Positions 29,555-62,861 of a stretch of 64,000 nt of DNA are shown here, in pieces. Positions within the stretch are counted from its first letter, which is position 1. The number at the start of each line of letters is the position of its first letter. The notes beneath the pieces were generated by a model. That model did no database searches, was not told the DNA's origin, and saw only the letters and a program-made list of their open reading frames with translations. The position numbers and the translations under genes are program-made. The stretch is from Nymphaea colorata (lineage: Eukaryota; Streptophyta; Magnoliopsida; Nymphaeales; Nymphaeaceae). The stretch is from positions 37,997,115 to 38,061,114 of the forward strand of contig NC_045138.2 of NCBI RefSeq assembly GCF_008831285.2, written 5' to 3'.

Positions 29555-29759
29555 TCTTAAGGAGCCTTTTGATTTTTTTCTCAATCTCTTCATTTTTTGC
29601 AGGAATTAAAAATACATTAATTTCTCATTTGCTTTCCCTTCCTCCCCTATCTTTTCCTCTGCATCCAAACATTGTTTTGGAGTCCATCCTTTCTCTCTCC
29701 TTTCCTCCATCCTAGCGAAGGGAGTGACGGACTGACGGTACGTCAAGGCACGATGCTTC

Positions 29760-32700: not shown

Positions 32701-35700
32701 GAATTGCAGTTAGCAAAACCCGAATTCATCGACACAAGCAGTGAAATTAAGTTAATCAATCTCATAAAAGGTGTCCTGATCTCCATTGGAGATGTGCTTT
32801 CTACATATTTCTAGCCTTGGTCTATCGTCTGAACTCTGCAGAAAAGGTGCGCATTCTGCAACTAAAGACAGCGCACAGGAGGCCATGGCCCTGGGGAAAG
32901 AGCTTGGATTTGAAAAAGGCCAATAATATATTGTATCATTTTGCTGGGGAGAAGAGTTTGGATTTGAAAAAGGCTGTTAATATATTGTATGATGTTTAAT
33001 TACTGACGAATATCTTGGAATTTTCACGAAATTTAATTGACTCGACCTTCGTTGCATGAATATTACCTAGTTTCATATTACTGTTTACCAAGACTGCAAC
33101 AAAATTTGTGTTTTACTTTCAATTCTTTGCAACAGGAAACTTCTCTTAGAGCACTAAACCATATCTGTTAATTCCCTAAAATCTGTCATCCATAGTTTCA
33201 AGCGTTTGTCGATGCTTCCAAACTTTGAACATTAAATTGGCAACCATAGTTGTTTCTAAGAGCCATTCTACCACGAAAAAAATTTCAACCTTTTACCCCT
33301 CTTGTTATAAGTAAGTTCCATCATCTTGATCGATGAAATGCACTGAATAATTTGAGATTCTCACCTAATGAAGGTACATAGTGATAAGTGTGATTGGCAA
33401 AAGGGAAAAGAGTATTCATTCCCTTGTGCATTTGGTGCATTTCGCCTTGTTAAATAGAAGCACAGCAGTGAACCTGATCTCCACTTTGTAAATTATTCTC
33501 TTAAAGGAGCAAACATATCAGGTGCGGTCGTTAGGCCATGCCTTCCCAAATATACCTTCTATGTTTGCCTCCCATCCTTCTAAGTTGTTCATTTTTTAAA
33601 ATATAACCATGTAGATGGATGCAAAATACAAGAATAAAAAGCCATGCAAATCGGATGTCTAGACAAACCCTGCGAGGCAGTTAATTTTTAAAATGCTGTA
33701 AAATCTAACTTATCTGATTTTTATGTTCTTTCTGATCTTACAAATTCTAACATTAATTTTCATCCATCCGTATAATTAGGTTGGTGAAATCACTACTTAA
33801 ACGGTTGCGCCATAAGGCACACGAGAGGGCCAAGATAAAAGTGAGAGAAGTGACCACATATATTACATCTCTTAACATTCCTTTTGTTAGGCTTGTTTAG
33901 ATGTGCTTATATTTACTCATAAAAATCAAAGTATTTAGTAGGGGAGATACCTGCAAGAGACCGAAGCCTCTTCACCTTTCCTTCGTGCCTCCAAGATCCA
34001 AAGCTTCTTTGGAACATTGGTGGTGAGTGGTAAAGAGTGTCACATATCGTTTATTTGTAGCCAGAAGAGTGGTACAACTGAACTTCTATTGGCTCGTCCA
34101 CCTATACTATGCCGTTCCAGATAATTAACCTATTTAATAGGGAACATGCAACCTTTTGGCTGTTTTTAACATATCATAGCACTTATCAGGCTGAAAACGA
34201 AGTGGGGACATCCAAGACCTGGGACAACACCATGCCAAGCCCAGGATAAAGACTGGTGAATTCCCTTTGCTTATGAATTGCTATCAGTACGAGCTCCTAA
34301 TCAGCATTGTGTCATCAAATGCTGCTGAAGAAGCTTATACCAACATCAGTGCAACTTTTTAAGTGAGAGAATATACTAAAAATATCAGCAGATATTCTTC
34401 TCAGAGTGGCGAGCACAGATCTCTCCACTATGATTCTAGAAAAGAAATTCGCTACTAAAATGATCTCACGGATGCTGGCTGGGAGGCGGTCTAACTCCCC
34501 AAGTATGCTCTTATTCTTCTCGACACTCATAAATCGTTTTCACCAATTCAACTCCAGATGCATGATCTCTGCACTACCAGTTAGGAGAGAGCATATTCCC
34601 TGCGATTCTGCGATGTCGTGGGAGACCAACCAAGTGAAGTCGGGAAAAGTGTGATGCTGAACCAGAAAGGTTGTCCTGCTTTTACTGCGTTTTCTGTAAA
34701 AAGTTGAGAGGATTTCCGTATGCTTCTCAAAATCTACCTTTGATTTTGTGCACGATTCGGTGCATTTCCTTCTTTCTTTCTGTTGTTAATTCCCTTGTGG
34801 GGAGACCAGCTGCGAACATTGTCTGAAGTTATGAAAGGTGCCATTGGGTTCTACGTAGTTGGGGACACTTAATGCTGCTCTGATTGGTTGCTTGAGGATC
34901 TTTGAGTCTCAGCAGCAAACAGAAGCAGGAAAGTCAGAGAAAGAATGAGAATGTTCCAGAATAGCGAGATGTGATTGGATGTCCACCGAAGGGTGGAGGT
35001 GTTCCTTTCTTGGGCTATACAGGACTTTATCTCTCTAGGGGATGTTTGATACGCTTGGTTGGAGTGCAAGTGAGAATCTGCCTAAGATGGTTTGTCTAGG
35101 ACAAAGTGTCAACATGTCTCACTTTTCTGTTTCTGTTTGAACTATGAACAGATTTTACGCAGAGAAAAGGAGTTTTTTGGCCATGAAATCTTTTGTTGCT
35201 GAAAACAATTACATGACTTGAGCATGAGAACGGTTTAAGCGAACATATTTTATCTACCAGATCAATTGTATGATTATATTACGATATTAAATTAAGCAAT
35301 GCAAAACATATTTGTGTGATTGTTTAGATCTCTTTCTCTCTCTCAAACGCACAAAAAGAAAAAGAAATAAATGTTGTCACGTTAAACATAAGTTAAAGTG
35401 TAAGTTGAAGAAAACTGTGGTGGCCCTTCTAGGGAAGTTACTTTTGAGTAGGGGAGTCAATGGATCTGAGTAGGATAGAATACCCAGCCAAACTACTAAA
35501 AAAAAGTCGGATATGGAAAAATAATTTTACATTTAAAAGGACATCTATTGGTTCTGGATTTGGTTTTCAATAAATTTCCATGCGGATTAAGATCCAGATT
35601 TAGTTTCAGATAAATATTCTATGTAAATCTAATATCCATAAATATTGAAAGATGGCTCTCAACGTATCGTTGGATTCGGTTGTATACTTAAAAGTCAGAT

Positions 35701-35945
35701 TCAGATGTGAACATAGAAGTCTGATTCAGATTCAAATTGTAAATTTAAAAGCATGACTCAAATATAGAATGGACTTCTTTCATATTCAAATCTGAATATA
35801 ATGAACTTCCGTTAAATCAGATATTTAAAGGCACATCCGGTTCCATGAGAATCCATTCTTTTGAATCCCTACTTTCAAGGTGACAATAACAAACATATCA
35901 CACACTCTTGCACAAACACACACACACGTACAGAATGAGAGAGAT
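29760..35945. repeat. Large duplicated block, copy 1 (~6.2 kb)
   Basis: Nearly collinear with 50305-57330; the right part also matches 38517-41790. The shared segment starts at ctctgagatggtgcgacgtg and ends just after a (CA)n tract with gtacagaatgagagag. It contains only short open frames; one at 34406-34654 is preserved in two copies but shows no known motif. Within it, 30050-30250 and 30430-30480 contain phrases such as gccggcccctg and gagccaggatatt that are typical of decayed plant transposon ends. No gag, pol or transposase was recognised. Confidence 0.85.
32886..32995. repeat. Two-copy ~54-bp tandem repeat inside the duplicated block
   Basis: Two adjacent units share gaTTTGAAAAAGGC and aatatattgtat. 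The pair recurs in the second partial copy at about 38703-38812 and is truncated in the third near 54650. Confidence 0.8.
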
Positions 35946-36860
35946 TTATACTAATGTGTTTATCTTTATCTGTTTAGTAAAAGGGCATCAGATATTTTTC
36001 ATGCTCAATTTTATGCATGTGCTGGCTTCTTGTGTGGCTGGTGTATAAGCTGAAGGCTTCCTGACCCTCTTCTGTCTAAAGGCTGTGTTGAGTGTTCATC
36101 AGATAGGTTAAGTTGGATGAGCGCAACGTCCCCACCCTATTATTTAGTTTTAAGCAAAGTTAGTGGAGACAAAGCCATTGTGCAAATCCAAATTATCAAA
36201 TAAATTGCAAAATCACTTGCTTTATTTCTTTAGACAACACATTCAACACATAATTTTCTATAGAAAAAAATTGTGTTGGGGAAGGGGGTCAGGTGTTTCC
36301 CCTCTTTTCTACAAAATCAATTTTTGTCAAAATTGGATTTTTCGAAATCCAGTTTTGGTAGTACCTAAACACTATGAAAACATGGTTTTGATGGAAAGGC
36401 CCAAATGTAAAGTTTCATTCAAATCTAGTTTTGGTGACATTCAAACACTACGAAAATGTGGTGTTAAAGACCAAACCAGTTTTTACTTGTAAATATTGGT
36501 TTTAATGTATCATGATATAATCCAAACGTCTCTAAAAAAGAATAATTTTTGCTTTAAATGCGGGGAGAGAGAGAGAGAAGAGAGGGGACAAGAACGGGTT
36601 TACTTGTTTCATAATAATATCAAGATTAATACTATTCATCTCATCAATACTGTAGATAGCACCTTCCAAAAATTGAACAGTTTGATGTGATTATAACACG
36701 CCACACAAGAAGGCAGCACATGCATAAAATTGAGCATGAAAAATATCTGATGCCCTCTTTTACTAAACAGATAAAGATAAAACACATTATGTGTTAAATC
36801 TCTCTCACTCTGTACGTATGTGTGTGTGTGTTTGTGCATGAGCGTGTGATATGTTTTGTT
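35887..36860. repeat. Inverted repeat pair, arms ~165 bp, at the end of the duplicated block
   Basis: Sequence 35887-36050, including the (CA)n tract, atctttatctgtttag and catgctcaattttatgcatg, recurs inverted at 36690-36860. The ~640 bp between contains a GA-rich tract at 36568-36590 and AT-rich DNA. Confidence 0.85.
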
Positions 36861-37209: not shown

Positions 37210-38515
37210 CTCGTTTCAGTGAACTAACTCGACGACGAACTTGTTATGAGCTAAGTCAAATAGCCAGGAAAGGTTCCTCTCTTCTAGAGCCTTACGCCCG
37301 CACACACATGCTTGGATTTGTTTATGTTGATAAAAAAGCACAATCACCATCATTTCTTAAACAAATCTGAGTATAGGTACGTTCTCTCTCTCAACGCAAG
37401 AACACCCAATTATCGCAAGCCCCCAGATTCGGGGTAGAAAAAGATAGGAAGAATAATTGAATGAAGAATAAAATATTTCAAGGGACTTCGAAAAATAGTA
37501 CCCCGAACCGTCCTTGTTTCTTTCGTTAGTCTTTCTTTCGTTCAATAGAAGAGCACCCTCCACACAAGTTGTTTTTTTGTTGGAGGAAAGAAAGATTGAT
37601 GGAAGGAAATGAGGACGGTTCAGGGTGCTATTTTTTGTAGTCCCGTGGTCTCAAAGATTTCATTGTTCATTCAATTATTCTTCCTATCTTTTTCTTTTTC
37701 CAAATCTGGGGGCTTGCGATAATTGGGTGTTCTTGATCTCAGTAAAGTTTAGATGTCTTTCTCGAAATTCTAGTTTAGATGTCTTTCTCGAAATTCTTTT
37801 TAGACCCGACGAAACACATTTAGCTGCGGATTGGGGAGTCCAAAACTCGGTCATACTTGTCAAACGTGATTCGTGTTTCTAAGAATTCTCTTGATACAAT
37901 AACCAGAGTTTCTTAGCACTTCCCCATGTTTGTGTTAAGACGGACATCAACTCTTAATTGTTACAGAAAATAAAGAAAACCTGGAAATCTTTATCAATCC
38001 ATGTGAACGGTGGAGCTCATAAAACTCGCTAGTTCAACTCGGCCGCCCACCGGTGAAGCCAAGGCATATCGGCTGGTTCGTTTCTCAATTTTCAGTCTCA
38101 CTACCACCATTAGTGGGGTCACCACAACAAATGATTGGATGGTGCTTGGAAACAAATATATAAAAAGGAAAGCTGAAGCCTGTTTCTTAGGATCTTTTTT
38201 CAGCTTTCCTACAATCTTTTTGAGGGAGAAGAAGAAAGGTTCTTGAGAAATGTAAAGAAACAGGGTTTACCATTCCTTTCTATATCTTTGTTTTCGAAGC
38301 ACCACCTGGTGTGATGAGCCCCACCAGTTGTGGTGATAGTTGTGAGGCTGAGAAATGAAGCCAAACCAACAAGCCGAGATGCCTTTTCTTCATCTGTTGG
38401 GAGCCGAGCTGAACCAGCGAGTTTTATGATCTCGAGTTTCTTGGATAAGATTGGGGTTCGAGGTGCTTTGTGTAATTCTGAAAATATATTGCTTCATCTA
38501 TATGTACTCATTCGT
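37210..38515. repeat. Second duplicated block, copy 1 (~1.3 kb)
   Basis: Collinear with 44870-46195, sharing ctcgacgacgaac, ggttcctctcttctagagc, a gtgaacggtggagctcataa segment and a shared cttttcttcat end. An adjoining segment at 36975-37045 matches the last 70 bp of the window (63930-64000). No gene is recognised; an internal inverted pair with attcttcctatctttttc lies at 37436-37460 and 37675-37700. Confidence 0.85.
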
Positions 38516-38516
38516 G

Positions 38517-41500
38517 AAATTGCAGTTAGCAAAGCCCGAATTCATCGACACCAGCAGTGAAATTAAGTAAATCAATCTCAGAAAAGGTGTCCTGATCTCC
38601 ATTGGAGATGAGCTTTCTACATATTTCTAGCCTTGGTCTATCGTCTGAACTATGCAGAAAAGGTGCCCATCCTGCAACTAAAGACAGCGCACAGGCGGCC
38701 ATGGCCCTGGGGAAAGAGCTTGGATTTGAAAAAAGCCATTAATATATTGTATCATTTTACTGGGGAGAAGAGTTTGGATTTGAAAAAGGCTGTTAATATA
38801 TTGTATGATGTTTTGATTATTTAATTACTGACGAATATCTTGGAATTTTCACGAAATTTAATTGACTCGACCTTCGTTGCATGAATATTACCTAGTTTCA
38901 TATTACTGTTTACCAAGACTGCAACAAAATTTGTGTTTTACTTTCAACTCTTTGCAACAGGAAACTTCTCTTAGAGCAGTAAACCATATCTGTTACTTCT
39001 CTAAAATCTGTCATCCAGAGTTTCAAGCGTTTGTCGATCCTTCCAAACTTCGAACAACAAATTCGCAACCATAGTTGTTTCTAAGAGCCATTCTACCACG
39101 AAAACAAATTTCGACCATTTACCCCTCTTGTTATACGTAAGTTCCATCGTCTTGATCGATGAAATGCACTGAATAATTTGAGATTCTCACCTAATGAAGG
39201 TTCATGGTGATAAGTGTGATTGGCAAAAGGGAAAAGAGTATTCATTCCCTGGTGCCTTTGGTGCATTTCGCCTTGTTAAATAGAAGCACACCAATGAACC
39301 TGATCTCCACTTTGTAAATTATTCTCTTAAAGAAGCAAACATATCAGGTGCGGTCGTTAGGCCATGCCTTCCCAAATATGCCTTCTATGTTTGCCTCCCA
39401 GCCTTCTAAGTTGTTCTTTTTTTAAAATATAACCATGTAGATGGACGCAAAATACATGAATAAAATGCCTTGCAAATCAGAAAGACATGCCCTATGAGGC
39501 AGTTAATTTTTAAAATGCTGTAAAATCTAACTTACGTATCTGATTTTTATGTTCTCTCTAATCTTACAAATTCTAACCTTAATTTTCATCCATCCGCATA
39601 ATTAGGTTGGTGAAAGTACTATTTAAACGGTTGAGCCATAAGGCACATGAACGGGCCAAGATAAAAGTGAGAGAAGTGACTACATATATTACATCTCTTT
39701 AACATTGCTTTTGTTAGGTTTCTTTGGAAATCAACATATTTAATAGGTAAGATACTCTTAAGAGACCCAAGCCTCTTCACCTTTTCTTCGTGCCTCCAAG
39801 ATGCAACGCTACTTTGGAACATTGGTGGTGAGTGGTACGCCTTTCAATTAAAGTGTCACATATCCTTTATTTGTAGCCAGAAGAGTGGTACAACTGAACT
39901 TCTACTGGCTCGTCCACCTATACTATGCCGTTCCAGATAATTAACCTATTTAATAAAGAACATGCAACCTTTTACATATCATAGCAATTATGAGACTGCA
40001 ACCTTTTACATATCATAGCAATTATGAGACTGAAAACAAAGTCGGGACATCCAACACTTGGGACAACACCATGCCAAGACCAAGATAAAGACTGCTGAAT
40101 TCCCTTTGCTTACGAATTGCTATCAGTACGAGCTCCTAATCAGCATTGTGTCATCAAATGCTCCTGAGGAAGCTTATACCAACATCAGTTCAACTTTTTA
40201 AGTGAGAGAATATACTAAAAATATCAGCAGATATTCTTCTCAGAGTGGGGAGCACAGATCTCTCCACTATGATTCTAGTAAAGAAATTCGCTACTAAAAT
40301 GATCTCACGGATGCTGGCTGGGAGGCGGTCTAACTCCCCAAGTATGCTCTTATTCTTCTCGACACTCATAAATCGTTTTCACCAATTCAACTCCAGATGC
40401 ATGATCTCTGCACTACCAGTTAGGAGAGAGCATATTCCCTGCGATTCTGCGATGTCGTGGGAGACCAACCAAGTGAAGTCGGGAAAAGTGTGATGCTGAA
40501 CCAGAAAGGTTGTCCTGCTTTTACTGCGTTTTCTGTAAAAAGTTGAGAGGATTTCCGTATGCTTCTCAAAATCTACCTTTGATTTTGTGCACGATTCGGT
40601 GCATTTCCTTCTTTCTTTCTGTTGTTAATTCCCTTGTGGGGAGACCAGCTGCGAACATTGTCTGAAGTTATGAAAGGTGCCATTCGGTTCTACGTAGTTG
40701 GGGACACTTAATGCTGCTCTGATTGGTTGCTTGAGGATCTTTGAGTCTCAGCAGCAAACAGAAGCAGGAAAGTCAGAGAAAGAATGAGAATGTTCCAGAA
40801 TAGCGAGATGTGATTGGATGTCCACCGAAGGGTGGAGGTGTTCCTTTCTTGGGCTATACAGGACTTTATCTCTCTAGGGGATGTTTGATACGCTTGGTTG
40901 GAGTGCAAGTGAGAATCTGCCTAAGATGGTTTGTCTAGGACAAAGTGTCAACATGTCTCATTTTTTTGTTTTTGTTTGAACTATGAACAGATTTTACCCA
41001 GAGAAAAGGAGTTTTTTGGCCATGAAGTCTTTTGTTGCTGAAAACAATTACATGACTTGAGCATGAGAAGGGTTTAAGCGAACATATTTTATCTACCAGA
41101 TCAATTGTATGATTATATTACGATATTAAATTAAGCAATGCAAAACATATTTGTGTGATTGTTTAGATCTCTTTCTCTCTCTCAAACGCACAAAAAGAAA
41201 AAGAAATAAATGTTGTCAAGTTAAACATAACTTAAAGTGTAAGTTGAAGAAAACTCTGGTGGCCCTTCTAGGGAAGTTACTTTTGAGTTGGGGAGTCAAT
41301 GGATCTGAGTCGGATAGAATATCCAGCCAAACTACTTAAAAAAAGTCGGATATGGAAAAATAATTTTACATTTAAAAGGACATCTATTGGTTCTGGATTT
41401 GGTTTTCAATAAATTTCCAATCGGATTAAGATCCAGATTTAGTTTCAGATAAATATTCTATATAAATCTAATGCCCATAAATATTGAAAGATGGTTCTCA

Positions 41501-41790
41501 ACGTATCGTTGGATTCGGTTGTATACTTAAAAGTCAGATTCAGATGTGAACATAAAAGTCTGATTCAGATTCAAATTGTAAATTTAAAAGCATGACTAAA
41601 ATATAGAATGGACTTCTTTCATATTCAAATCTGAATATAATGAACTTCCGTTAAATCAGATCTTTAAGGGTACATCCGGTTTCATCAGAATCCACTCTTT
41701 TGAATCCCTACTTTCAAGGTGACAATAACAAACATATCACACACTCATGCACAAACACACACACACATACGTACAGAGTGAGAGAGATTT
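38517..41790. repeat. Large duplicated block, partial copy 2 (right half, ~3.3 kb)
   Basis: Matches 32704-35945 with few differences over long stretches (for example 40140-40940 against 34300-35100). It begins abruptly at ttgcagttagcaaagcccg, fused to the end of the second duplicated block, which marks a rearrangement junction near 38515. Confidence 0.88.
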
Positions 41791-42036
41791 ATTCTTTCTT
41801 GATTGACCTTCTTATCCCAAATTGATGGATAGGTGGGTGCAAAACTTTATGGCATTTCGAATTTTGCGTGAGAAGATTGATAGAGAATGTTGCCTCTCAT
41901 GCTGATCCACGCAACCTACACTTGATTTCACTTGAGACATTTTTCAAAGGTTTTAGTGAAGCATCTACCAGCACAACTTCTAGGCTTTTTAGACCATGAG
42001 AACATGTGAAAGTAAACAGTCATTACCTGCAAATCT

Positions 42037-43547
42037 TAAATATGAGCATATTGGTATACTCTTTATTGACCATGAAATTCACACGGTGAGGAAGATTGTG
42101 ACTGATCATTATGTATTTCATGCCATAACCCTCTGCCAAAATGGCTCTCATGACCTGCAAATCATCTTTCGCCCCATGTTGATGACAGATTTTTCGTGTG
42201 CATATGGTTTGGAATACATGTTTTGCTTGGAATATCCCTAATTTGTCGCGTCTAACTTCAGACATGATAAGAAAATGCTATTCATGGCACATCATGATGT
42301 ACATGGGATGCTTCGTGCGCATTTCCTCCATTGGCACATTTCTGCAGACTGTTCCTGCGGTTTCTGCAGAAAGCTTTCCTCAAGTTTGTTGGTTTCCATG
42401 CAGGGATAAAGTCCAAACACTGAATAATTTCATGAAATTTACTACCATTTTGTTTGCCTTTACAACAAAACATGCTCTTTTTGTTCTCTGTTTGAATTTA
42501 GGATGTACAATGATTTTTCATGTGCTTGATTTCTGGGTAAAAAAAAAAGCTTCGATATGTTTAATTACCAAACGCTCCTACAATTTCTAAAATGGAAAAC
42601 ATACTCCAGCTCACATAAAATATACTCCAGCTCCTACAATTTCGATATGTTTAATTATCAGTCTCAGGTTTTCCCATTTCATTTTTCAGAGAATTGGAGA
42701 GCCCTGACCAAAAGGAGCTAGCAACAGTTCTTAGCACTGGGGATGAATTTGTAATCTCCAAGAAGAAGAAGAGGGTTTTATTTGAAAATACACAAAACTA
42801 AAACACGTATTCGAAATCTGCTAATATGGTAGGGACAATCCCGGCAAATAAACCTTAGTTGAAATAATAATGAAAAACATGGTTTCAAACCGCATTAAGA
42901 AATCTAGAGAGTTCTTAGCGAAAGACAATTGGTAAAATTTGCTTCGAAGACAGCGCTAGCATGATGCTTAATTAAATAAATAATTGCAAAATTTTAAGTC
43001 ATTATTTCTGGACCAATGAAGTCCAAACAAAGCTCTAAAACCCTCTAGATTGTCTTTCGCTAAAAAAATCATTGTACATCCTAAATTCAAACAGAAAGAA
43101 CAAAAAGAGCATGTTTTGTTGTAAAGGCAAACAAAATGGTAGTAAATTTCATGACATTATTCAGTGTTTGGACTTTATCCCTGCATGGAAACCAACAAAC
43201 TTGAGGAAAGCTTTCTGCAGAAACCGCAGGAACAGTCTGCAGAAATGTGCCAATGGAGGAAATGCGCACGAAGCATCCCATGTACATCATGATGTGCCAT
43301 GAATAGCATTTTCTTATCATGTCTGAAGTTAGACGCGACAAATTAGGGATATTCCAAGCAAAACATGTATTCAAAACCATATGGACACGAAAAATCTGTC
43401 ATCAACATGGGGCGACAGAAGATTTGCAGGTCATGAGAGCCATTTTGGCAGAGGCTTACGGCATGAAATACATAATGATCAGTCACAATCTTCCTCACCA
43501 TGTGAATTTCATGGTCAATAAAGAGTATACCAATATGCTCATATTTA
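42037..43547. repeat. Long inverted repeat, ~484-bp arms with a ~543-bp loop
   Basis: Left arm 42037-42519 and right arm 43063-43547 are reverse complements with only scattered substitutions. Both arms contain an ~80-codon open frame (minus strand left, plus strand right), but the differences between them change amino acids, so selection for a protein is not evident. The right arm ends abruptly at 43547 against a different repeat. Confidence 0.92.
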
Positions 43548-43558
43548 GTGGAGCATCT

Positions 43559-44388
43559 ACCGCCTTTCTTCGTCCTTCGTCTTCTCGACTTTTTCCCTTT
43601 TCAGAAAGAAAGATGCAGAGAGCTGGGACAGAGGACGATGATGAAGAGGAAGAAAGAGACCCTCCCCCCACAAAAGTATCGGCTGACTGTGGGCGCGTTA
43701 ATATAAAACACTGCAACTCAGAGAGTAGATTCTTGCGGTGCCACCAGGCGATCCCCGTCTCTCTCTTCCGAGGAATAAAAGCCTCGTAATGACTGATTTG
43801 GATTTGATATAAACTATGGATTTGGATCTGGATCCAAATTTAAACTGACCGGCTAACGACAAAAGGTCAGGGAAGACCTTTCTCATGGTTGACGTCAACG
43901 GCTGTTAACTTCCCTCAGTTTTTTCTCTTGGAAATAATTCGTTAAATTATTTTTCCTATTTCTTCTCATTATTTCTCCACACATGCTTTGGTAAATTTTA
44001 AATAACTACGAAAAGAAAAAACACATGTCAGCATTCTGTCACTACACTTGCAAATGGATCCAAATCCAATACAGCAAAACGCATTAAAGATCAAATCCAA
44101 ATCAGTCGCACCAGCCTGTAAATAACTGAAAAGCACAGGGCCAGTGTCGTCATTATAAAGGCTTTTATTCCTCGGAAGAGAGAGACGGGGATCGCCTGGT
44201 GGCACCGCAGGAATCTACTCTCTGAGTTGCAGTGTTTATATTAACGCGCCCACAGTCAGCCGATACTTTTGTGGAGGGAGGGGCGCTTTCTTCCTCTTCA
44301 TCATCGCCGTCTGTCCCATCTCTCTGCATCTTTCTTTCTTTTCTGAAAAGGGAAAAAGTCGAGAAGACGAAGGACGAAGGAAGGCGGT
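43559..44388. repeat. Inverted repeat of the promoter-like block (head-to-head)
   Basis: The left arm (43559-43790) is the reverse complement of 44160-44388, including the GC-rich stretch with gcgcccacagtcagccgata. The spacer 43800-44150 contains a segment (43820-43970) that recurs at 61850-62010. Confidence 0.88.
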
Positions 44389-44868
44389 CGCAAGAATTCA
44401 TCTCGGGTTGGTGGCGGAGTCGTGCGATGTTGTGGCGGGTAAGGGAATGGCTTGATCTCTGGGGTTTGGGGAAGGCCGGACTTTTCTGAGTATCGTCCTC
44501 TACCTTCCCTAAATTTTCGTTCCTTCTTCTTCTCTGCCCCTTCCCTTCCCCTTCTGCCTTTCTCTGGAGATCCTACCTAGTAGCTACACGATCGTCGAGC
44601 GCGGAACGTGGGAAAGGAAAAACAAGAAAGCTAGACACGAAGAACGAAAGAATCCAAGCCAGAGCTTCCTTCTAGGCCGGTCGGAGCACCGCCGGAGGTC
44701 AATATCTCCCGATTCCGTTCTCACGCTCGCAATACCGGAAAAGGTGAATTCATCTGCTCTTTTTTCTGTGTTCGCGTGCCCTTCCTCCCCTGAGAGGTTT
44801 CCTGTCCACTTTTCTTTTTCGAAAAGCCCTTCTCGATGAGCCGCGGTTTACTTAGTAAGATTACCAAA
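44040..44868 (+). repeat. Promoter/5'-UTR-like duplicated block, copy 1
   Basis: Nearly identical to 62862-63670. It is GC-richer than its surroundings, CT-rich, and near its end has a plausible 5'-UTR intron donor (ggaaaag followed by gtgaattc at 44744). It looks like a captured gene leader duplicated several times; no downstream coding sequence is attached in either copy. An 85-codon frame at 44232-44489 is low-complexity Ser-rich and is not considered a gene. Confidence 0.75.
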
Positions 44869-44869
44869 C

Positions 44870-46195
44870 TAACTCGACGACGAACTGGTTATGAGCTAAG
44901 TCGAACTGAGCGACCTGCTTGCTCAGTTCAAAAAGCCAGGAAAAGTTCCTCTCTTCTAGAGCAGTACGCCCGCATCTACAGTTTTTCTTACTAATGAAAC
45001 AACACATGCTTGGATTTGTTTGTGTTGATCAAAAAGCATAATTGCCGTCATTTCTTAAACAAATTTGAGTATAGGTACGTTCAGAACACCCAATTATCTC
45101 AAGCCCCTAGATTTGGGGTGAGAAAAAGATAAAAAGAATAATTGAATGAACAATGAAAAAAAATCAAGGGACTTTCCTTATTTTTTTCATTAGTCTTTCT
45201 TTCGTAGCACCATCCACTACAATAGCACCATCCACGCAAGTCGTTTTTTTGTTAGAGGAAAGAAAGATTGATTAAGGAAATGAGGACGTTTTAAGGTGCT
45301 ATTTTTTGAAGTCTCCTGGTCTCGAGATTTCATTGTTCATTCGGTTATTCTTCTATCTTTTTCCTTGTCCAAATCTGGGGGCTTGCGATAAGTGGGTGTT
45401 CTTAATCTCAGTGAAGTTTATGTCTTTCTCGAAATACTTATTAGAGAGGACGGAACACATTTAGCTGTGAATTGGGGAGTCCAAAACTCGGTCATACTTG
45501 TCATTATCCTTCAAACGTGATTCGTGTTTCTAAGAATTCTCTTGATACAATAACCAGAGTTTCTTTAAAAAGAATCTGGATGTCACTTCCCCATGTTTGT
45601 GTTTAGACGACCATCAACTCTTAATTGTAACAGAAAATACTGAAAACCTGGAAACCTTTATCAATCCATGTGAACGGTGGAGCTCATAAAACTCACTGGT
45701 TCAATTTGGCTGCCCACCGGTGAAGCCAAGGCATATCGGCTGGTTTGTTCGGTTTCATTTCTCAATTTTCAGTCTCACTACCACCATTAGTGGGGTCATC
45801 ACAACAAATGATTGGATGGTGCTTGGAAACAAAGATATAAAAAAAGGAAAGCTGAAGCCTGTTTCTCAATAGCCTTTTTCAGCTTTCCTACAATCTTTTT
45901 GAGGGAGAAGAAGAAAGGTTCTTGAGAAATGTAAAGAAACAGGGTTTACCATTCCTTTTTATATCTTTGTTTCCGAAGCACCACATGTGATGAGCCCCGC
46001 CAGTTGTGGTGATAGTTGTGAGGCTGAGAAATGAAGCCAAACCAACAAACCGAGAATGAGATGCCTTTTCTTCATTTGTTGGGAGCCGAGCCGAACCAGC
46101 GAGTTTTATGAGCTCAAGTTTCTTGGATAAGATTGCTGTTCGAGGTGCTTTGTGGAATTCTGAAAATATATTGCTTCAAGTAAGGTATATATACT
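44870..46195. repeat. Second duplicated block, copy 2
   Basis: Collinear with 37222-38512 with small indels. It abuts the promoter-like block at 44868, whereas at 63670 the same block continues into different sequence, which shows a deletion or recombination at this junction. Confidence 0.85.
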
Positions 46196-46632
46196 CATTC
46201 TAGAAAAACGGAAACTTGTATGCTATTTAGAATACATAATCAAACATGCGGCGTGCAGGCTTCCCAATTTATGATCTGTCGACATTCTTAATGTGTGAAG
46301 GGTGATCATCGTATAGGTACAGTTATGCTGATACTCTCTTGATTTTGGAAGTGCTTAATAATTATGTCAAACTAAGTTCAAAATGAAAAGAGAACTATGT
46401 AATTCTTATTTTGATTTGATAATCCAGGCAAAAATATCATGAATTTATGGATCTTTGGGTTGTTTGAACCATGTTCATAAATAAACTCGTGAAATGGAAG
46501 CAACGAAGCTGGGTCCATCATGGCCGTCTCGGCAGGCTACATTTGCGTGCACCTATGTGGCCAATTGGGCGGTTGTGGGGAGTGCGGTTGCTACGGCGGG
46601 AGTTAAGGCATCATCAATTAGGGTTTAGGGGT
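46196..46632. other. Unassigned spacer
   Basis: AT-rich followed by a GC-rich 100 bp just before the left end of the 3.6 kb element. Nothing recognised. Confidence 0.5.
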
Positions 46633-47627
46633 TAGGGCTGAACACAAGCCAAGTCGAGCCCGAGCTCGGCTCAAGCTTGAAAATAACTCGACTACACTGG
46701 CTCAAACTCGACTCGATAGTCACGTGTCGAGCTCGACTCGATTAAGCTCGCTAAACTTGTTTAGTTCAAAAATCCTTACTTGTTGAGCTCGAGCTCGATT
46801 AAGGCTAGATTAACTCGTTACAAAGGAACACAAACAAAAAACCAACTTATCTATTGCAAGAGAAATAAAATTTTGGTAACCAGGAACCTATCCCGATTTG
46901 GAAACCATATAGCTCGTGAGTCGTGAAAAAAGGCTAAGATTCAAACAAACATTGCAAAACCACACAATTGAGAGGACGAAATATAGATGCAATTCCAATT
47001 AATAACTACACAAGCGGGAGAGTTTGGAATTCCTGGCTGAGAGTTGAAGTACAATGACAAGCGAGCTTACCTGCAGCTGCAATAAAGCTAATGGCGGCAC
47101 AATTAGCCTTATGGACTTAATAATGAATTTAGCAACTCTTGGCGCTATAGAAACAAGAGAACCTTAACCATTCTCAATCACATATATGACAATTCACATT
47201 CCAGCCTCTCAACACTTACAAAGACATATAAATCAACTATTTATTCGTAGTAGACCTTATTCACCGCAGCTGCCAACAATAACAATATTATAAACAAAAC
47301 AAGGAAATCATGACTAATGAATTCCTCTCACAGTTCTAAAGTGTAAATAGTCAAATGACAACCATTTCATATGGACAAATAGACGAATACATGAACATCA
47401 ATAGATACTTTAGATAAGCAAAATGAATTCACTTCTGCACTGAAAATAGACTATCAAAAGAGAAATGGAGTATCATAAACAAATCAAATGATAATAAGCA
47501 AGATGAAGGACCTATTGACAATGCAACACAAAATATTTCATAGAGGTCAATAATCACCATTCATTTCACAACTACTATTTGAATAAAAGGAGCAGATATC
47601 TATTGGGAAAAAATTCCTATATGCTCA

Positions 47628-47858
47628 TAGCTCTAGCTCCAAATGGGTGTCAGAACAGTTTCTCCAAATGGAAGGCAGGCCAGTTCCATCAAATTCATTC
47701 CAAATGAATGAGACTTCTACATAATTAGCTTGTTCAGAAGTATGTAAAAATATGTGAACAAATGTTTTAAGAGCCTTCTCTCCTCTCAAGGAACCAAAAC
47801 TTGAAAATGAACCATCCATTCTTCTAGCCACAATAACAGCAAAGCTCCTAAATAACAT
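47628..47858 (-). pseudogene. Possible captured 3' exon of an unrecognised gene
   Basis: An open frame on the minus strand, preceded by a T-rich tract with ttatttag, encodes a non-repetitive stretch with SFIWNEFDGTG and ends at a stop. I do not recognise it. It is listed because it lies in the same element and orientation as two clearer fragments. Confidence 0.25.
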
Positions 47859-48165
47859 AGAAAAAGGACTATGTCACATTATTGTCAAATTTAAAAAATT
47901 GTTCTTAAGAGGTGAAGGAAAGTTAAAGATTACTTAACATGGAAAAAAAAAGAAACATATACTAATATGGCAGCAGTCCTAACACACACATTAACATCAT
48001 ATAACAACCCAAAAAGTTAAAACAAATTCTCTAGTTAAGTATATAATAGGAAATTAAGCAAGCATTAAACAACAAGAATGAACCATATTTCACAAAATGA
48101 CCAACATTTGGAATGAATAACAATTAACAAGAGCACATCATCGTAGCAGTATACTTTGCATTTAC

Positions 48166-48236
48166 CTCTTCAAGCCGCTTTCTTATACTGTTCTCAGGGC
48201 CCAATATGAGGCCAATGAAGTTGATATTTGGATACG
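48166..48236 (-). pseudogene. Captured exon fragment of a KH-domain (SF1/QKI-type) gene
   Basis: A 71-nt exon on the minus strand between an acceptor (tctcaaag) and a donor (gtaaat) encodes YPNINFIGLILGP followed by RKRLEE. This is the conserved start of the maxi-KH domain of splicing factor 1/QKI-type RNA-binding proteins (consensus NF-x-G-x-ILGPRG). The GPRG turn is altered to GPEN, which argues for a decayed copy. No neighbouring KH exons were found. Confidence 0.5.
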
Positions 48237-49356
48237 CTTTGAGAAATATATAAAAATATGTGAACAGACTTGTAATTTAAATTCCAAGCACAGACCTGTA
48301 CATTGCCGAGTACAAATTAAATGTTGTTGCATGAACAAATAAAGCCTAGATTACGTAGTTGGAATCTTTGAAAGAGTCTTGGCAATGAAAAATTAACTAA
48401 AAAAGAACCTTGGTTTGTTTCTGGCTGTGACAGGAACCTTGGTTTGCTAATGATGCTCTTGATTGAGGTAACATGGAAACTATAACAGACTTTTGCTTTG
48501 ATTATTAAGAAGAAATAAACTCTCCAAGCACTGTTTGTTGAAGCATCACAGTCTCAACTGATGTTATACAACCACTGTAAGATGAAATGAAGTCAAACAA
48601 CATAAATATCCAAGTAGTTAATGACATGTGGAAAAACCAAAGGACTTAGAACAACCTGCAAGCAACGCAATCATGTAATGTGAAAGTGACAGGTTCACTT
48701 TGCTGACTTTTCTGAGATAGCAACTTCTTTTGGCCCTACAAAACGAACAACCTAAACTCCTTCGTAAACTAAGGCACCATGTTTGAATGATATTTGATTA
48801 AAGACTGCCAAAATCATGATTGCATGTTCAACAGACAACAACTATTTTCTGGAGACTTCAAACACAACATTCGAGTTCAGGCTCCATTCAGCAATCAAAC
48901 GAGAAGTGGAAAAGAGGAAACATCATGTAGTATGCTTCAAAAATAAGATAACATAGCATGTCCAGATGGACGACTTCATCCAGAAATTTGGAAGGTAGAA
49001 AATAGCACAGCCCGAGCTTGCCACATTGAGTCTATAAGAACCCAAACTGTGTTCAGAAAAAAGCAAAAAAAGACAACCAGGTTTTTTGGACTGCCAATAA
49101 GCTCGTCTCACAATTTCAGGAAAACGAAAATGTGGACAAAACAAAAATGTGGACACGATCCCAGAGTGGCCTATTGTCTAACGAAGAAGAAAATTGACGA
49201 AGATAACACAAAAAGCAGTGTACCCACTTCTCCCAATAAAGGGAAAGTCAACTACAGATCGAGAAAAATAAGAACAATCACCACAAAATCTTCTTGCTCG
49301 TCTATGAAAATGTTCGAAAAGAAACCCTCAAAAACACAAAAAAAAAAGACATTTAC

Positions 49357-49418
49357 CGTTGGAATGGCGCTAGCCACACTAGCAATGGCTGCTGCCTTCA
49401 GTCCTGCCCGAACCCCCT
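49357..49418 (-). pseudogene. Captured exon fragment of an early nodulin 93 (ENOD93)-like gene
   Basis: A 62-nt exon on the minus strand, bounded by acceptor gtgtag and donor gtaaat, encodes GVRAGLKAAAIASVASAIPT. ENOD93 proteins have the same block (EGVxAGxKAAxxAxxASAIPT) just before LASVR. The following LASVR...PWA exon is absent from the element. Intact splice sites on both sides indicate capture at DNA level rather than from mRNA. Confidence 0.6.
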
Positions 49419-50304
49419 CTACACAAACACCAAGAAACAAGAACTCAAAGTGAAAATTTGTAGCATGTACCAACAAAACCAGCGAAACTAATTTGTGGTT
49501 TCTCAGAAGGAGATGCAAGGGGAGATCGGTTGAAGGCGGCGGCGCTCACCTGAAACCTTGAAGGATGACACGGAGTAACGAACTTACGAGGGTTTCACTT
49601 GGGGAAAAAATTTTGATACGATAGAGAGAACAAATGGGCAAAGAGGTACTCACTGGCTCACTGCGACGAGAGATGGAGAGAGTTGTCGGTGTTTTACCAG
49701 GGTCACCAGAATGGCAGAACCCAACGCCGACGGTCCTCGTCAACAAGGAAAGATCAAAGCTGCGGCGGCCTGAAACCAGTTGAAGTATGAAGGCATTGAA
49801 GGGTTTTCTAAGGAGATGGAGAGGGAGAAGGCTGAAGCGGAGAGCACAGGTAGGAAAGGAGAAGAGAAGGAGAAGTTTCGAGATGACGGACGACGAGAGA
49901 CAGAGAGTCGAAGAGTCGAAGAGAGGGAGAACAAAAAGGAAACAAAGTTAAAACTGAAAAAGAGTTTCCCGCCTGAACGCTGAATCGGTTCTCGAAAACC
50001 CGTAGAGTCAAACTTTAACGGGTTCAGTTGAGTGAACTCGAACTCAACTTTGAGTCGACTCACAAATTCGAGCTTGATTCGTTCAATTTCGTTCAAGATA
50101 TGATGCAGCTCGAACTCGAGAACTCACATATGAGTCGAGTTCGAGTAGTTTGACTCATTGTTCACCCCAAATCATTAACTTCAACTCGGCTCGACTCTTT
50201 GTTCACCCTTAATCTTTTTCCCTTGGGGTTGCATTTGTGTCGTTGGCGATCGGGTCCCCATGTGCAATGTTTGACCTTTGGTAAAGGCACGTTGGAGGGG
50301 TGGC

Positions 50305-53300
50305 TTCTCGACTCTGAGATGGTGCGACGTGGTGCAGCGGTGCAGTTGGAAGTGTGCGCATCTATGTCAACATTTGGCAGCACTAAGTGGCGGCGATGTG
50401 TGCGGAGAGGAAGAGGGGAGTGGTTCGTTCCGTATCAAATACATCACGGAAATCAGTGATGGCACAAACGGGAGTAATCCCTACATTTTCAAAGAAAATT
50501 TAACGATAGGATGTGCTTTCGTTTTAAAAGCTAGAAAAGTGCTCTTGATTCGCTGTGTACAATTTGATGTATAACGATTCAGATTTTGATCAAATAAAAA
50601 TTTGAATATTTTACAAGCACGTCATCAACTATGATGACTAAACACACTAAAGTTTGGAGATTTGTTACTTAACTGCCTTCTGTATAATTAATACGAAGTA
50701 CTTAAAAACGAATTGTTTTTGCCATTCTTTCTTCTGTTAGGTGCTCCTTCATAAAATTTCAAAAAATGGGTAAGAATCTACGTTCTGAAAGATGATAATC
50801 ACAACAGTAAAGTTGGACTTTTTGAAAAAGACACGCGAATTTCACATCAATGCAACTACAGAAACATTATATAATCAAGTCAAGTGATCCATCTGGAGGA
50901 CAATAAAAAATATAGGAGGTTAACCGAATATTTTCAGTACCTCGATTTTGATTTACCAGTTTTTAGTGAATATTTGAAAGCATTTACTAGAGAGCAAATT
51001 AGACGAATAACGACGAAAGACTGTCACAATTTATGGTGTCGCAATAGCAGTCACAGGTGGAGGAAATTACGACACTGATAATAGTCTTAATGGCGGCGAT
51101 TGGTAATGACGGTGGCCATGAGAGGCGGTAGCATGGCAAAAAACGAATTTTACTAAACATTTCAAAAAAAGTGGTGCTATTAGTAGGTTCAGAAAAAAGT
51201 AATCTTTTCTACGGTACATTTTTTTGTTACCTTCACAAGAAGCTATTATCGTGGGTGGATTTTCGCCTTCTGAAGCTATTATCTTATTCATAGTTCTTAT
51301 TGATAATCAAAATTTTGACAAGGGTTGAAAAATAATTTTTAAATTTTTTTTATATAAGATGAATAAAGTTTTTAAAAATTTATATGTAAAATATTTTGAG
51401 GGAAACCATAGCCCCTACTGGCCCCTGACTCCGCCCTGCGTAATTCACCTGCCATAGCCATGATAGCAAGAAGTTTATATCGATGTATGGTGAAAGAAGA
51501 AATAAAAGTAGGAACAAAACTTAAAAAAAGTTTCTAGATATTTAAGCTTCTCTTTGACTAATCGATCTGATCCTGAATGGCGTCCATTCTTTTAGAATGG
51601 CAATCTTTACCCACTTTTTGAACATGATCTGGTCCTACTACGCGGGCAGGATGTTGGTTTTTTTTTTTTTTGTTAGGAGAAAATGAGGCAGTGGCCGAGA
51701 TACATGGGGTCTGGTGTAGGCGGTGCATATCAAAAGTTTCATTGAAAAAATGGAAAATCATATCGCGATGCAGATGACTTACATCAAACCTATGTTGGTG
51801 ACTCGAGCGCCCCTCCGCCAAAATATCTTGGCTCTACCATCGGTAGAAAGCAGAGTATAAGTTGCTATAGAAATCATAGGATATTTCTTCTGTTGAAACT
51901 CTAGTTACTGTGGTACCTAACAGAACCTTTTGAAGAAAAAAGCCTAGAACTTGTGCTGGTAGATGCTCCACTTATAGCAAAAGAAAAAGAAAAGGTTTTG
52001 ATAAAGAATATATTACATTTATTTTCAATGGGCACGATTCGATTCTAGTTGATGTTCGGTCTGCGTCTTTTGACATGAAATCGATGGCCAATAAGTATGT
52101 CTTACTTATATTCTCAAAAGTAGGTAGCCTTTTATGAAAAGTTAATTTCTATTAAATCGCAGAAGAAACTACTTATTGTGTTAGAAACATAGATGCCGGA
52201 TTATCATGTCGTGACCATGAATGTATTCAGAGTAAGTGTAAAATTTTGAAGCAAACTCTCTTTGAGCCTTAAAACTTTCGCAAGGCAAGTACGGGAGAGG
52301 AGGCTCAGCCGCACAAGAAGCCGCAATAAGGGTCGAACCATGACTATTCACTTCCAAGAGTGGCTTTTCCTCAGTTGTGCTGAGCTCTCGGGTTTCCTTA
52401 GCGTCACCTCATTCAATAAAAAGCCACTAGTGCAATTACTAGTTAGCGAGAAGGACTTGTTGCGGGCTAGCATGAGGTTAATACTCCACACTGTCTAAAA
52501 AAGAAGCCCGACGGCTCCTCCATCCCTTTGTCTCTAAGGGTATGGGCAGCGTTGAAGTCTAGAAGAGATATGATACACCGATTAAAGAGTGTCACCATTT
52601 GCGGTCCAAGACCAATAGCAATCACAGGAATTCAACCGATGACATGCCTTAAATGCACCACTTACCCGACCAACCATGCTAGGGGAGCAAGCCAGACTTG
52701 TTAGATTGGATCCAAGTAACATGAAAACTGGATGGTTAGCTAGGTTGCACTATCATAACAAAAGTTCTTGGTTTGGAATTCTTTTAAACTTATCCTCCAA
52801 TTTGGCTGTCACAAAAGAAAAATTAGATGTTTGGATGGGATTTGACTTGTGCTTTTTTGTTGGTCAGTTACATGTTTTAAAGCTATGACTCCATTAAAAG
52901 TCAGTAGATTTATATACAACTTTAGTGCATTCCAAAGCGTGATCACTTGAACAAGTCATACTTTCATTGGGTTTGGTATGAACCAAGGCAATGACAAGGA
53001 AGCCGAGTTCCAGTTCAGAATCATGTAGATCATGTCATAAACTGGATGGGGTATAAAATAAAGTACAAATTCGTGCTTCTCAAAGCCACATGGTGGGTGG
53101 CTTGATTTCACAAACTCCGAGTTCTATAGTGATCAGATTGGTTCGTAGTGAATGCATATCACCCCATTATCAAGGCACCAACTGTGAGTATACATGGCCG
53201 ACCTAGTTAATACAGCAACTTGTTGGGGGAGAAAGAGAGGGAGAGAGGGAGAGGAAGAGACTGTGTCCTTATGGGGAGCAGATACTACCGGGTGCTCCAC

Positions 53301-56300
53301 CAAGTTGTGGATCAAACTATTCGAATGGTATTTGTACACAAGGTCAACGGCCTGGCATGAAAATGCAACCAGGCTTTGGCCAACTCATTGAACCGGCGGG
53401 AACAGTAAACCCACTAGATATTTGCTCAATATGACTAGAAAGCACAGGATGCTTGAAGCCCATAACATCACTGTGTCCTGTACTTAGCCAAAAACTGTCT
53501 GCATGCATTCTGGACATGCCCTTTTCTGGACTGTGGAATTTGATGTACATAAATTGATTTAAGAGCCCCAGGTCCTTCTTGCCAGCCATGATCATGGCAG
53601 GTGGATGGATGATGTGCCTGTTGAAGCTGTCTGCCTTTCTTGAAATGCCTTTTCTTTATTGTGAAATATGATGCACATCGATTTGAGAAGCATGGCCCTT
53701 CTTGGCAGCCATTACCATGGCTGTTGATCATGGATGATTTGAGTCTGCACTGATGGTGTTTGTGACTATTAGTGGTATCCAACGTCAGAGCAGTAATCGT
53801 CTTTAGCATGTTGGAAACACAGATTTGGATATTCCTCCCTACCATTAAAAGTTTATCTGGTTATGGATGTCCTACGCAGACGTATCAGATTGGTTGATCA
53901 TTGCTTATCATGCACTAAGGAATACACTTGCCTGCTGAGTGGATTGACATTCTGCCTGCACATATGACGAAAAGATGTTTGATTTATTGCATAATTTGCT
54001 TTAAGATCGCATACTAACTTTTATTTTCTTGGCGTTTCTGCAGATCCGCCTAATAGAAAAAGCACCAGGCGGAGATACCTTGGTCCCTGCAAAAGTGGTT
54101 TTCATTACTTGAAATCTGCATTTGGCGTTTAAATTCCTGCTTTACCTTTGATATGTTCACCTTTGATATGTTCTACGGCACGTGCTTTCTGCACCTCCTG
54201 CCCCACCAGCTAGGCTATGCCTCTCGGGGCTTGATGATCTAATGAATTGAAGTTGGTATTATAATCAACTCAAACTGTCAAACTGGGGATATTCCAATCA
54301 GAAATCTGCCGGGAGATAGGATCTCAGTATTTTATTACCAAAAAAATCTTATGTACATCAAAAAATAAAGGGATGCAGAGCATCAGATCTTCACGAAAAG
54401 GAAAACAAGCAGTAACACTCCAACTGCTCAAGGACTTTGGCAAAAGAACCGATTGGAATTGCAGTTACAATACCCGAATTCATCGACATCTTCAGTGAAA
54501 TTAAGTAAATCAATCTCATACAAGGTGTCCTCTTCTCCATTGGAGATGAGCTTTCTACATATTTCTAGCATTGGTCTATCGTCTGAAATCTGTAGAAAAG
54601 GTGTCCACTCTGCAACTAAAGACAGCGCAGAGGCGGGCATTGTCGTCTGGCCTGGGGAAAAGAGATTGGATTTGAAAAAGGTGCCCATTCAACCTTTTAC
54701 CCCCCTTGTTATAAGTAAGTTCCATCGTCTTGATCGATGAAATGCACTGAATAATTTGAGATTTTAACCTAATGAAGGTTCGTGGTGATCAGTGTGATTG
54801 GCAAAAGGGAAAAGAGTATCATTCCCTTGTGCCTTTGGTGCATTTCGCATTGTTAAATAGAAGCACACCAATGAACCTGATCTCCACTTCGTAAATTATT
54901 CTCTTAAAAGGAGCAAACATATCAGGTGCGGTTGTTAGGCCATGCCTTCCCAAATATGCCTTCTATGTTTGCCTCCCAGCCTTCTAAGTTGTTCTTTTTT
55001 AAAATATAACCATGGAGATGGATGCAAAATACATGAATAAAAATGCATGAAAATCAGATGTCTTGACAAACTCTATGAGGCAGTTAATTTTTAAAATGCT
55101 GTAAAATCTAATTTACGTATCTGATTTTTATGTTCTTTCTAATCTTACAAATTCTAACATTAATTTTCATCCATCCGCATAATTAGGTTGGTGAAAGCAC
55201 TACTTAAACGGTTGCGCCATAAGGCACTCGAACAGGCCAAGATAAAAGTGAGAGAAGTTAAAAGTGAGAGAAGTGACTACATATATTACATCTCTTAACA
55301 TTGCTTTTGTTAGGCTTCTTTAAATGTGCTTATATTTACTCATAAAAATCAACCTATTTATTTAGTAGGGGAGATACTAGTAAGAGACCCAAGCCTCTTC
55401 ACCTTTCCTTCGTGCCTCCAAGATGCAAGGCTACTTTGGAACATTGGTGGTGAGTGGTACGCATTTCAATTAAAGTGTCACATATCCTTTATTTGTAGCC
55501 AGAGGAGTGGTACAACTGAACTTCTATCGGCTCCCACCTATACTATGCCGTTCCGGACAATTAACCTATTTAATAGGGAACACGCAACCTTTTGGCTGTT
55601 TTTAAAGCATACTTCATAGCAATTATCAGGCTAAAAACAAAGTGGGGACATCCAAGACCTGGGACAACACCATGCCAAGCCCAAGATAAAGACTGGTGAA
55701 TTCCCTTTGCTTATGAATTGCTACCAGTACGAGCTCCTAATCAGCATTGTGTCATCAAATGCTGCTGAAGAAGCTTATACCAACATCAGTTCAACTTTTT
55801 AAGTGAGAGAATATACTAAAAATATCAGCAGATATTCTTCTCAGAGTGGGGAGCACAGATCTCTCCACTATGATTCTAGAAAAGAAATTCGCTACTAAAA
55901 TAATCTCACGGATGCTGGGAGGCGGTCTAACTCCCCAAGTATGCTCTTATTCTTCTAGACACTCATAAATCGTTTTCACCAATTCAACTCCCCAGATGCA
56001 TGATCTCTGCACTACCAGTTAGGAGAGAGCATATTCCCTGCGATTCTGCGATGTCGTGGGAGACCGACCAAGTGAAGTCGGGAAAAGTGTGATGCTGAAC
56101 CAGAAAGGTTGTGCTGCTTTTACTGCGTTTTCTGTAAAAAGTTGAGAGGATTTCCGTATGCTTCTCAAAATCTACCTTTGATTTTGTGCACGATTCGGTG
56201 CATTTCCTTCTTTCTTTCTGTTGTTAATTCCCTTGTGGGGAGACCAGCTGCGAACATTGTCTGAAGTTATGAAAGGTGCCATTCGGTTCTACGTAGTTGG

Positions 56301-57330
56301 GGACACTTAATGCTGCTCTGATTGGTTGCTTGAGGATCTTTGAGTCTCAGCAGCAAACAGAAGCAGGAAAGTCAGAGAAAGAATGAGAATGTTCCAGAAT
56401 AGCGAGATGTGATTGGATGTCCACCGAACGGTGGAGGTGTTCCTTTCTTCGGCTGCGGCTGTACAGGACTTTAGTAGGTGTTTGATACGCTTGGTTGGAG
56501 TGCAAGCGAGAATCTCCCTAAGATGGTATGTCTAGGACAAAGTGTCAACATGTCTCACTTTTCTGTTTCTGTTTGAACTATGAACAGATTTTACGCAGAG
56601 AAAAGGAAATTTTTGGCCATGAAGTCTTTTGTTGCGGAAAACAACTACATGGCTTGTGCATGAGAATGGTTTAAACGAACATATTTTATCTACTAGATCA
56701 ATCGTATGATTATATTACAATATTCAGTTAAGCAATGCAAAACATATTTGTGTGACTGTTTAAAATAAGAAATAAATGTTGTCACGTTAAAAATAACTTA
56801 AAGTGTAAGTTGAGACAAAAACTCTGGTGGCCCTTCTAGGGTAGTTATTTTTTTTCCTGGGGAGTCAATGGATTTGAGTCGGATAGAATATCCAGTCAAA
56901 CTACTTAAAAAAAGTCGGATATGGAGAAACAATTTTACATTTAAAAGGAAATCTTTTGGTTCTGAATTTGGTTTTGAATAAATTTCCAAGCGGATTAAGA
57001 TCCAGATTTAGTTTCAGATAAATATTCTATACATATCTAATATCCATAAATATTGGAAGATGGTTCTCAACATATCGTTGGATGCGGTTGTATACTTAAA
57101 AGTCCGATTCGGATGTGAACATAAAAGTCTGATTCATATTCAAATTGTAAATTTAAAAACATGTCTCAAATATAGAATGGACTTCTTTCATATTCAAATC
57201 TGAATATATGAACTTCCGTTAAATCAGATATTTAAAGGTACATCCGGTTCCATGAGAATCCATTCTTTTGAATCCCTACTTTCAAGGTGACAATAACAAA
57301 CATATCACACACATATACGTACAGAGTGAG
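50305..57330. repeat. Large duplicated block, copy 3 (full length, ~7 kb)
   Basis: Collinear with 29760-35945 apart from indels: an extra ~600 bp at about 50440-51035, an extra ~555 bp at 52185-52740 (SINE-like, separate entry), and a deletion near 54690 that removes sequence matching about 32925-33285. It ends at gtacagagtgag like the other copies. No intact coding sequence was recognised. Confidence 0.85.
52185..52740 (-). mobile_element. Insertion with tRNA-like (SINE) promoter motifs
   Basis: Present in this copy of the duplicated block but absent from the equivalent site near 30998 in the other. On the minus strand it has ctagcatggttgg (A-box-like) and ggttgaattcc (B-box-like) near 52625-52680, and a second B-box-like ggttcgaccct near 52330. 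The presence/absence pattern supports a young insertion; the dimeric SINE reading is tentative. Confidence 0.5.
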
Positions 57331-62010: not shown

Positions 62011-62861
62011 TTCTCATCATTCCCATAGGACTTGAGAAATTGTAAATAACTACAAAAAGAAAAAAATATGTTCCACTACCAATAGCTAGCTGAAAAAGCA
62101 TATTCCCTTTCTATGCTACAAAATCTTTAAGAAAAAATAGAAAAAAAGATCGTTTTCTTATAAATTCCCCATGAATCATCTAAACTCCACTGGATTGCCA
62201 TCCGTCTTGATGCTTGCCCGCTCATCGCTCGACCCAATTGTGAGATTGGGTTCAGGCAAGGTGGGTCTGTTAGGTTTGTGTCGAAAAGACATACTTTTCA
62301 GCTGGGCTTGGACCCACTTAAAGTAGGTCCAGTGCCTTATCCACTTGAGCAGGCAACCCAAGATCCAGATCCATGAAAATCTGAAATCCAGACTAAGATT
62401 GGATTAGACAACAAAGATTCGCAACTTTATGACAGTCCAGGAAGATCAATCAGCACCAATTGTAGAGGCTGGGCTCTTCTCGTATTCGATCTTCATTAGG
62501 ATCATCTAATGGGAATATGGAGCTACCGAGTCCTCATGGTCCAAAGCTGGTTTAAAATTTGATTCCCTTCTGCTAAGGGGATTCGTAATTGTGTATCCAG
62601 ATTGTTTATTTAGATTTTTTCTTTCATGCTTCATTAAATCCAATCACATTTAGAAAAACCCATGTTCATTAAAAAAAAAATGAAAATTTTAGTTTAGTTT
62701 ATATAAAAATTTTGAAAAATAATATTTGGGTTCTAGTTAAAATTTGAAACTATAATTCTATCTCTGTAATAAAAAATTGTTACATATTTAAGTTAAAAGA
62801 ATGCCGTAGCAGCCTGAGCCGTTCAGCTTTCAAGTGATATTCTGAGTCAGCATTGTCTCAC
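62011..62861. other. Unassigned DNA between inverted promoter-like blocks
   Basis: AT-rich, with no recognised coding sequence or element. Confidence 0.5.

Follow-up and report, generated by a model that had tools for sequence, protein, structure and literature searches.

A 3.6-kb stretch of the window (the whole 64-kb stretch of DNA analysed here) is bounded by imperfect inverted ends at 46632-50212, and it is probably a decayed non-autonomous Pack-type DNA transposon with terminal inverted repeats (TIRs), hAT-like in the architecture of its ends and carrying pieces of two genes, one like early nodulin 93 (ENOD93) and one coding for an RNA-binding KH protein of the STAR/SF1 type. The DNA of the window (GC content 0.387) is eukaryotic and apparently comes from a plant. 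Directly visible in the element are its inverted ends, paired clusters of a short motif and two exons flanked by splice borders. The first-pass annotation had read the region as Pack-type capture, by a hAT-like element, of exon pieces from two or three unrelated genes. The picture is in the main that of Pack-type capture: two unrelated fragments with splice borders share a strand and are enclosed by inverted ends that have matching motif clusters, and none of the ORFs matched a transposase family. The hAT label fared less well.

Gene fragments inside the element

The ENOD93-like exon (GVRAGLKAAAIASVASAIPT) occupies exactly the interval at which it had been proposed, 49357-49418 on the minus strand. 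It is 62 nt long and runs from phase 1 to phase 0, with an AG acceptor before it and a GT donor (GTAAAT) after it. ENOD93 genes are natively split by introns, which agrees with the second intron described for Arabidopsis in part of PMC11530774. The open reading frame (ORF) containing the exon matches the Pfam family ENOD93 (PF03386) at 27.9 bits (E 2.2e-6), above the family cut-off of 25 bits, and the 20 whole codons of the exon taken alone still score 25.3 bits. Upstream, positions 49489-49549 on the minus strand may represent the first coding exon of the same gene: they read VSAAAFNRSPLASPSEKPQI, which we take to resemble ENOD93 N-termini. The reading frame of this stretch holds no ATG, its ORF by itself has no Pfam match, and a manual splice to the ENOD93 exon gives 44 residues of which Pfam matches only 21-44. 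Still further upstream, 49550-49990 (minus strand) is a pyrimidine-rich, GC-richer stretch (GC 0.494 and a strong strand skew over 49500-49999), which, judging by composition, may be a captured 5' leader.

The second fragment, a KH exon of the STAR/SF1-BBP type (YPNINFIGLILGPENSIRKRLEE), lies in the same orientation as the ENOD93 exon, on the minus strand at 48166-48236. It is 71 nt long, also runs from phase 1 to phase 0 and has AG and GTAAAT at its borders. A phmmer search of the PDB with the KH piece returned branchpoint-bridging protein as the best match (E 4.2e-5), the next matches being chains of KHDRBS1 (Sam68), quaking, SF1 and GLD-1. Among the 20 PDB matches listed, 18 are STAR/SF1-type KH chains, including 2bl5, which we take to be of this type, and the other two are IGF2BP3 chains. 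In Pfam, the piece scored 15.6 and 16.3 bits (E 0.015 and 0.0088), and 11.9 bits within a longer concatenate, below the KH cut-off of 30 bits and at about the noise level set by the unrelated matches LIM_bind (0.012), NUP210_Ig (0.011) and MIR (0.017). Because the Pfam score is at noise level, the identification rests on the consistent list of PDB matches together with two empty controls, the reversed KH peptide (best E 6.6) and a neighbouring ORF (best E 0.61). On these grounds we accept the KH-domain fragment at precisely the position first suggested for it, for which Pfam alone would have been insufficient.

The first-pass annotation had also described the splice sites as intact. Both borders of the ENOD93 exon bear this out, as does the KH donor, but the KH acceptor is less safe. 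The PDB alignment starts at query residue 7, whereas the whole codons of the exon begin only at about residue 15, so that the match extends upstream of the acceptor. As including this upstream sequence improves the match (E 4.2e-5, against 5.7e-4 for the exon plus only the two residues before it), the acceptor may not be a native exon border. The adjoining sequence belongs to a 28-nt direct repeat (minus strand), one copy of which lies at 47733-47760 and the other at 48239-48266, ending directly ahead of the acceptor AG (48238-48237). The copies are identical at 25 of 28 positions, and their score, 19 by our own count, is the best for any direct repeat in 46860-49499, whereas 100 shuffles yielded nothing above 15. 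Such a duplication is compatible with templated filler; if it is filler, the KH acceptor would not be native.

The suggestion of 'two or three' genes thus stands for two, ENOD93 and KH, and not for the third. The candidate was an 82-codon open frame at 47625-47873 on the minus strand, which has no Pfam match and reaches a best E of only 0.41 in the PDB; in viral contigs, 14 stretches fit its pattern, with 0 confirmed relatives. By our own estimate from base composition, chance alone would give the element roughly one frame this long. Two exon-like bits spotted by eye near 47075 and 48700 (minus strand) were likewise set aside, as Pfam matched nothing in their ORFs. The absence of a third Pfam match is nevertheless weak evidence, because Pfam is blunt for single exons: at E 0.01, it missed the mannanase exon at 16140-16550, found in the PDB with E 6.5e-19. 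Scans of the window with Rfam and for tRNA genes were both empty.

Inverted ends and paired motif clusters

Inverted termini had been claimed for the element and they are present, albeit in imperfect form. The left terminal and subterminal region (46632-46820, plus strand) starts with TTAGGGCTGAACA, is rich in CTCGA/TCGAG and aligns in inverted orientation with 50016-50212, the right region, whose minus-strand reading starts with TTAAGGGTGAACA. The two termini are identical at 11 of 13 bases in an ungapped alignment. Two of the features that characterize Pack-type elements, host-gene fragments inside (the ENOD93 and KH exons) and terminal inverted repeats, are found here, the latter imperfectly. 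Over their full length, 46632-46820 and 50212-50016 align with many gaps and at low identity. The score of this inverted alignment, 54, was reached by none of 300 dinucleotide shuffle pairs (maximum 48) and by one of 1000 placements across the window that kept the same geometry (maximum 55). In direct orientation the same two ends score 42, which is also high because the motif is nearly palindromic.

The motif itself is a stronger sign of an element than the alignment score. Of the 82 CTCGA/TCGAG sites in the window, 10 fall within 46633-46850 and 9 within 49980-50212, while about 0.2 sites are expected at each end from the rest of the window. The corresponding Poisson probabilities (5e-14 for 10 sites and 4e-12 for 9) overstate the case, since the motif was picked after viewing the ends. 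The pairing of motif clusters at both borders is clear all the same: the two ends of the element are the only dense clusters in the window, and other groups of at least four sites in 250 bp occur only at 24.1-24.5 kb, with just four sites each. Clustered subterminal repeats at both ends are a hAT trait, and we infer that the 10 and 9 sites are putative transposase-binding repeats. A short telomere-like TTAGGGG repeat (2.9 copies, 46618-46637) sits right on the element's left border.

No second copy of the element occurs within the 64-kb window. The pattern of its ends is absent from viral contigs, though these are hardly the place to test for an element from a plant. The joined flanks have no good match at any other place in the window, and a search for an empty site through the repeat unit from 50272 on (with a relative from 29733 on) gave no convincing match to the left flank beside the relative, the best score being 36.

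Transposase, superfamily and alternative explanations

As had been noted at first pass, the element contains no recognizable transposase: none of its 37 plus-strand and 45 minus-strand ORFs of at least 25 amino acids matches a transposase family in Pfam, although an ORF-based search could miss shorter or badly broken remnants. The element's ORFs gave weak matches to unrelated families, none above cut-off.

The superfamily is a more delicate matter. An 8-bp target duplication, expected for the hAT-like element of the first-pass annotation, was not found: at distances of up to three bases from the two ends there is none, not even with three mismatches allowed, and in a wider scan the best pairs agree at 7 of 8 positions (right border 50222), which, given how many offsets were tried, is within chance (about 1.7 expected by our own estimate). 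Thus, the end architecture supports the description as hAT-like, but without a fitting duplication hAT membership is not established. PIF/Harbinger elements duplicate TTA/TAA at their target, and TTA does stand at 46632-46634 and 50209-50211; however, this pair is only 3 bp long and leaves the inverted repeat gapped. Given the missing 8-bp duplication, the three-base pair and the gapped repeat, we speak of an element hAT-like in end architecture and leave the superfamily open. Mutator-like elements (MULEs) have long TIRs of high identity and a 9- or 10-bp duplication. We rejected a Mutator-like (Pack-MULE) assignment, as the ends align with gaps and at low identity and no 9- or 10-bp duplication is present there (nearest 7 of 9, right border 50221). 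Nor is a Helitron supported: a strict scan of 45500-51500 on both strands, confined to perfect hairpins with CTRRT directly after them, yielded no candidate.

Several other explanations of the region have to be weighed against a hAT-like Pack-type element. One of them, which we regard as unlikely, is that the fragments were brought together by two unrelated insertions, by a Helitron or by some other rearrangement, each of the similar ends being a solo piece of the same common repeat. The lack of a target duplication fits this explanation, repeats and rearrangement joints abound around the element, and stepwise capture of gene fragments is known for Helitrons, as part of the literature on them describes. 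Yet the ends are inverted and both motif clusters abut the borders, neither of which sits well with separate insertions, and the empty hairpin scan speaks against a Helitron. It is quite unlikely, too, that the element is of the same kind but belongs to PIF/Harbinger, with the TTA pair as its target duplication and GGGCTGAACA and GGGTGAACA as its termini. TTA does flank GGG...CCC termini on both sides, and Pack-PIF elements exist (PMC8903248, in its section 9). On the other hand, a one-base gap is needed at position 4 of the inverted repeat, the 3-bp match is weak, and it is the hAT element Ac that is described, in part of PMC3260210, as having repeated motifs within its terminal 200 bp.

The remaining explanation attributes a present function to the cargo: headed by the captured ENOD93 leader, the minus strand would give a chimeric transcript that serves the host as a working gene or as a long non-coding RNA. 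Both exons do have intact splice borders and a leader-like pyrimidine-rich stretch lies upstream. However, neither of the two ORFs able to lead into the ENOD93 exon (49252-49545 and 49445-49594) contains an ATG or methionine, although an exon further upstream could hold a start, and a direct splice from the ENOD93 exon puts the KH exon out of frame, with a stop 17 codons into it. We therefore consider a working gene or RNA extremely improbable. The fuller scenario of a hAT element with two unrelated gene fragments and the promoter-proximal leader of one of them, driving a spliced ENOD93-KH chimeric RNA in the host, is very unlikely as well. As far as the sequence can tell, the cargo looks dead, because of the missing ATG in the two frames and the stop in the joined exons: it appears no longer to work, and nothing here suggests that the scraps still encode protein.

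On the Pack-type reading, which we prefer, a non-autonomous TIR transposon would have taken up genomic pieces, introns included, of the ENOD93-like gene and the STAR/SF1-type KH gene. These might have been copied in as genomic DNA through errors made while excision breaks were being repaired, an idea quoted in a section of PMC3260210. Alternatively, neighbouring insertions could have fused, as in the Pack-TYPE model outlined in section 9 of PMC8903248. A transposase supplied from elsewhere would then have mobilised the element, with decay setting in afterwards.

Relation to known gene-capturing elements

The closest parallels come from maize. Like Ds2 and Ds-l4, as portrayed in part of PMC3260210, the present element is non-autonomous and contains genomic gene fragments with introns; Ds elements are hAT elements, and one of them, Ds2-22, carries two exons with the intervening intron. 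In contrast to Ds2 and Ds-l4, which the same account credits with 11-bp TIRs and 8-bp duplications, the element here has imperfect ends, no 8-bp duplication that we could find and two source genes. The Pack-hAT and Pack-PIF elements of maize and rice, as treated in part of PMC8903248, are likewise TIR elements with pieces of host coding sequence, and one maize Pack-PIF subgroup resembles our element in holding pieces of two genes. Published Pack-hAT and Pack-PIF elements, in that same portion, have TIRs with a target duplication and group into clusters of copies, whereas the element here is less well bounded, shows no secure target duplication and occurs as a single copy in the window. Pack-MULEs, in the relevant part of PMC13317346, also harbour gene fragments in a TIR DNA transposon, but our element differs from them in having neither a long TIR of high identity nor a 9- or 10-bp duplication at its ends.

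Capture of genes by hAT elements is thus already in print (PMC3260210 and PMC8903248, in the sections concerned), and the element described here is a further example. According to the maize Ds survey, as excerpted from PMC3260210, capture of gene fragments is rare among hAT elements. If the element is confirmed as hAT, its two genes would add one example of exon shuffling by plant transposons; by itself, it opens no new question.

Surroundings in the window

A unit of about 6-7 kb is repeated in direct orientation at 29755-35952, 38515-41795 and 50303-57312, one of these three copies being partial. The copies are 90-94% identical over their longest stretches and 75-82% over others, and the element adjoins the third on its left. 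A 1.3-kb foldback-like repeat with strong internal inverted similarity occurs at 37222-38519 and 44867-46206 (about 80% identical), its first copy abutting the partial unit where the latter starts, at 38515. Two repeat pairs look recent, an inverted one of 98% identity (42037-42518 and 43064-43547) and a direct one of 96% (44027-44869 and 62846-63669). Tandem copies of about 260-270 bp, roughly 78-82% alike, extend over 6059-7106 within a 704-codon open frame (5010-7124) that has no Pfam match at E 0.01. Elsewhere in the window, 16140-16550 is an exon of a mannan endo-1,4-beta-mannosidase gene (PDB 1rh9, E 6.5e-19) and 1430-1804 is an exon encoding two Myb repeats (90.5 bits in Pfam).
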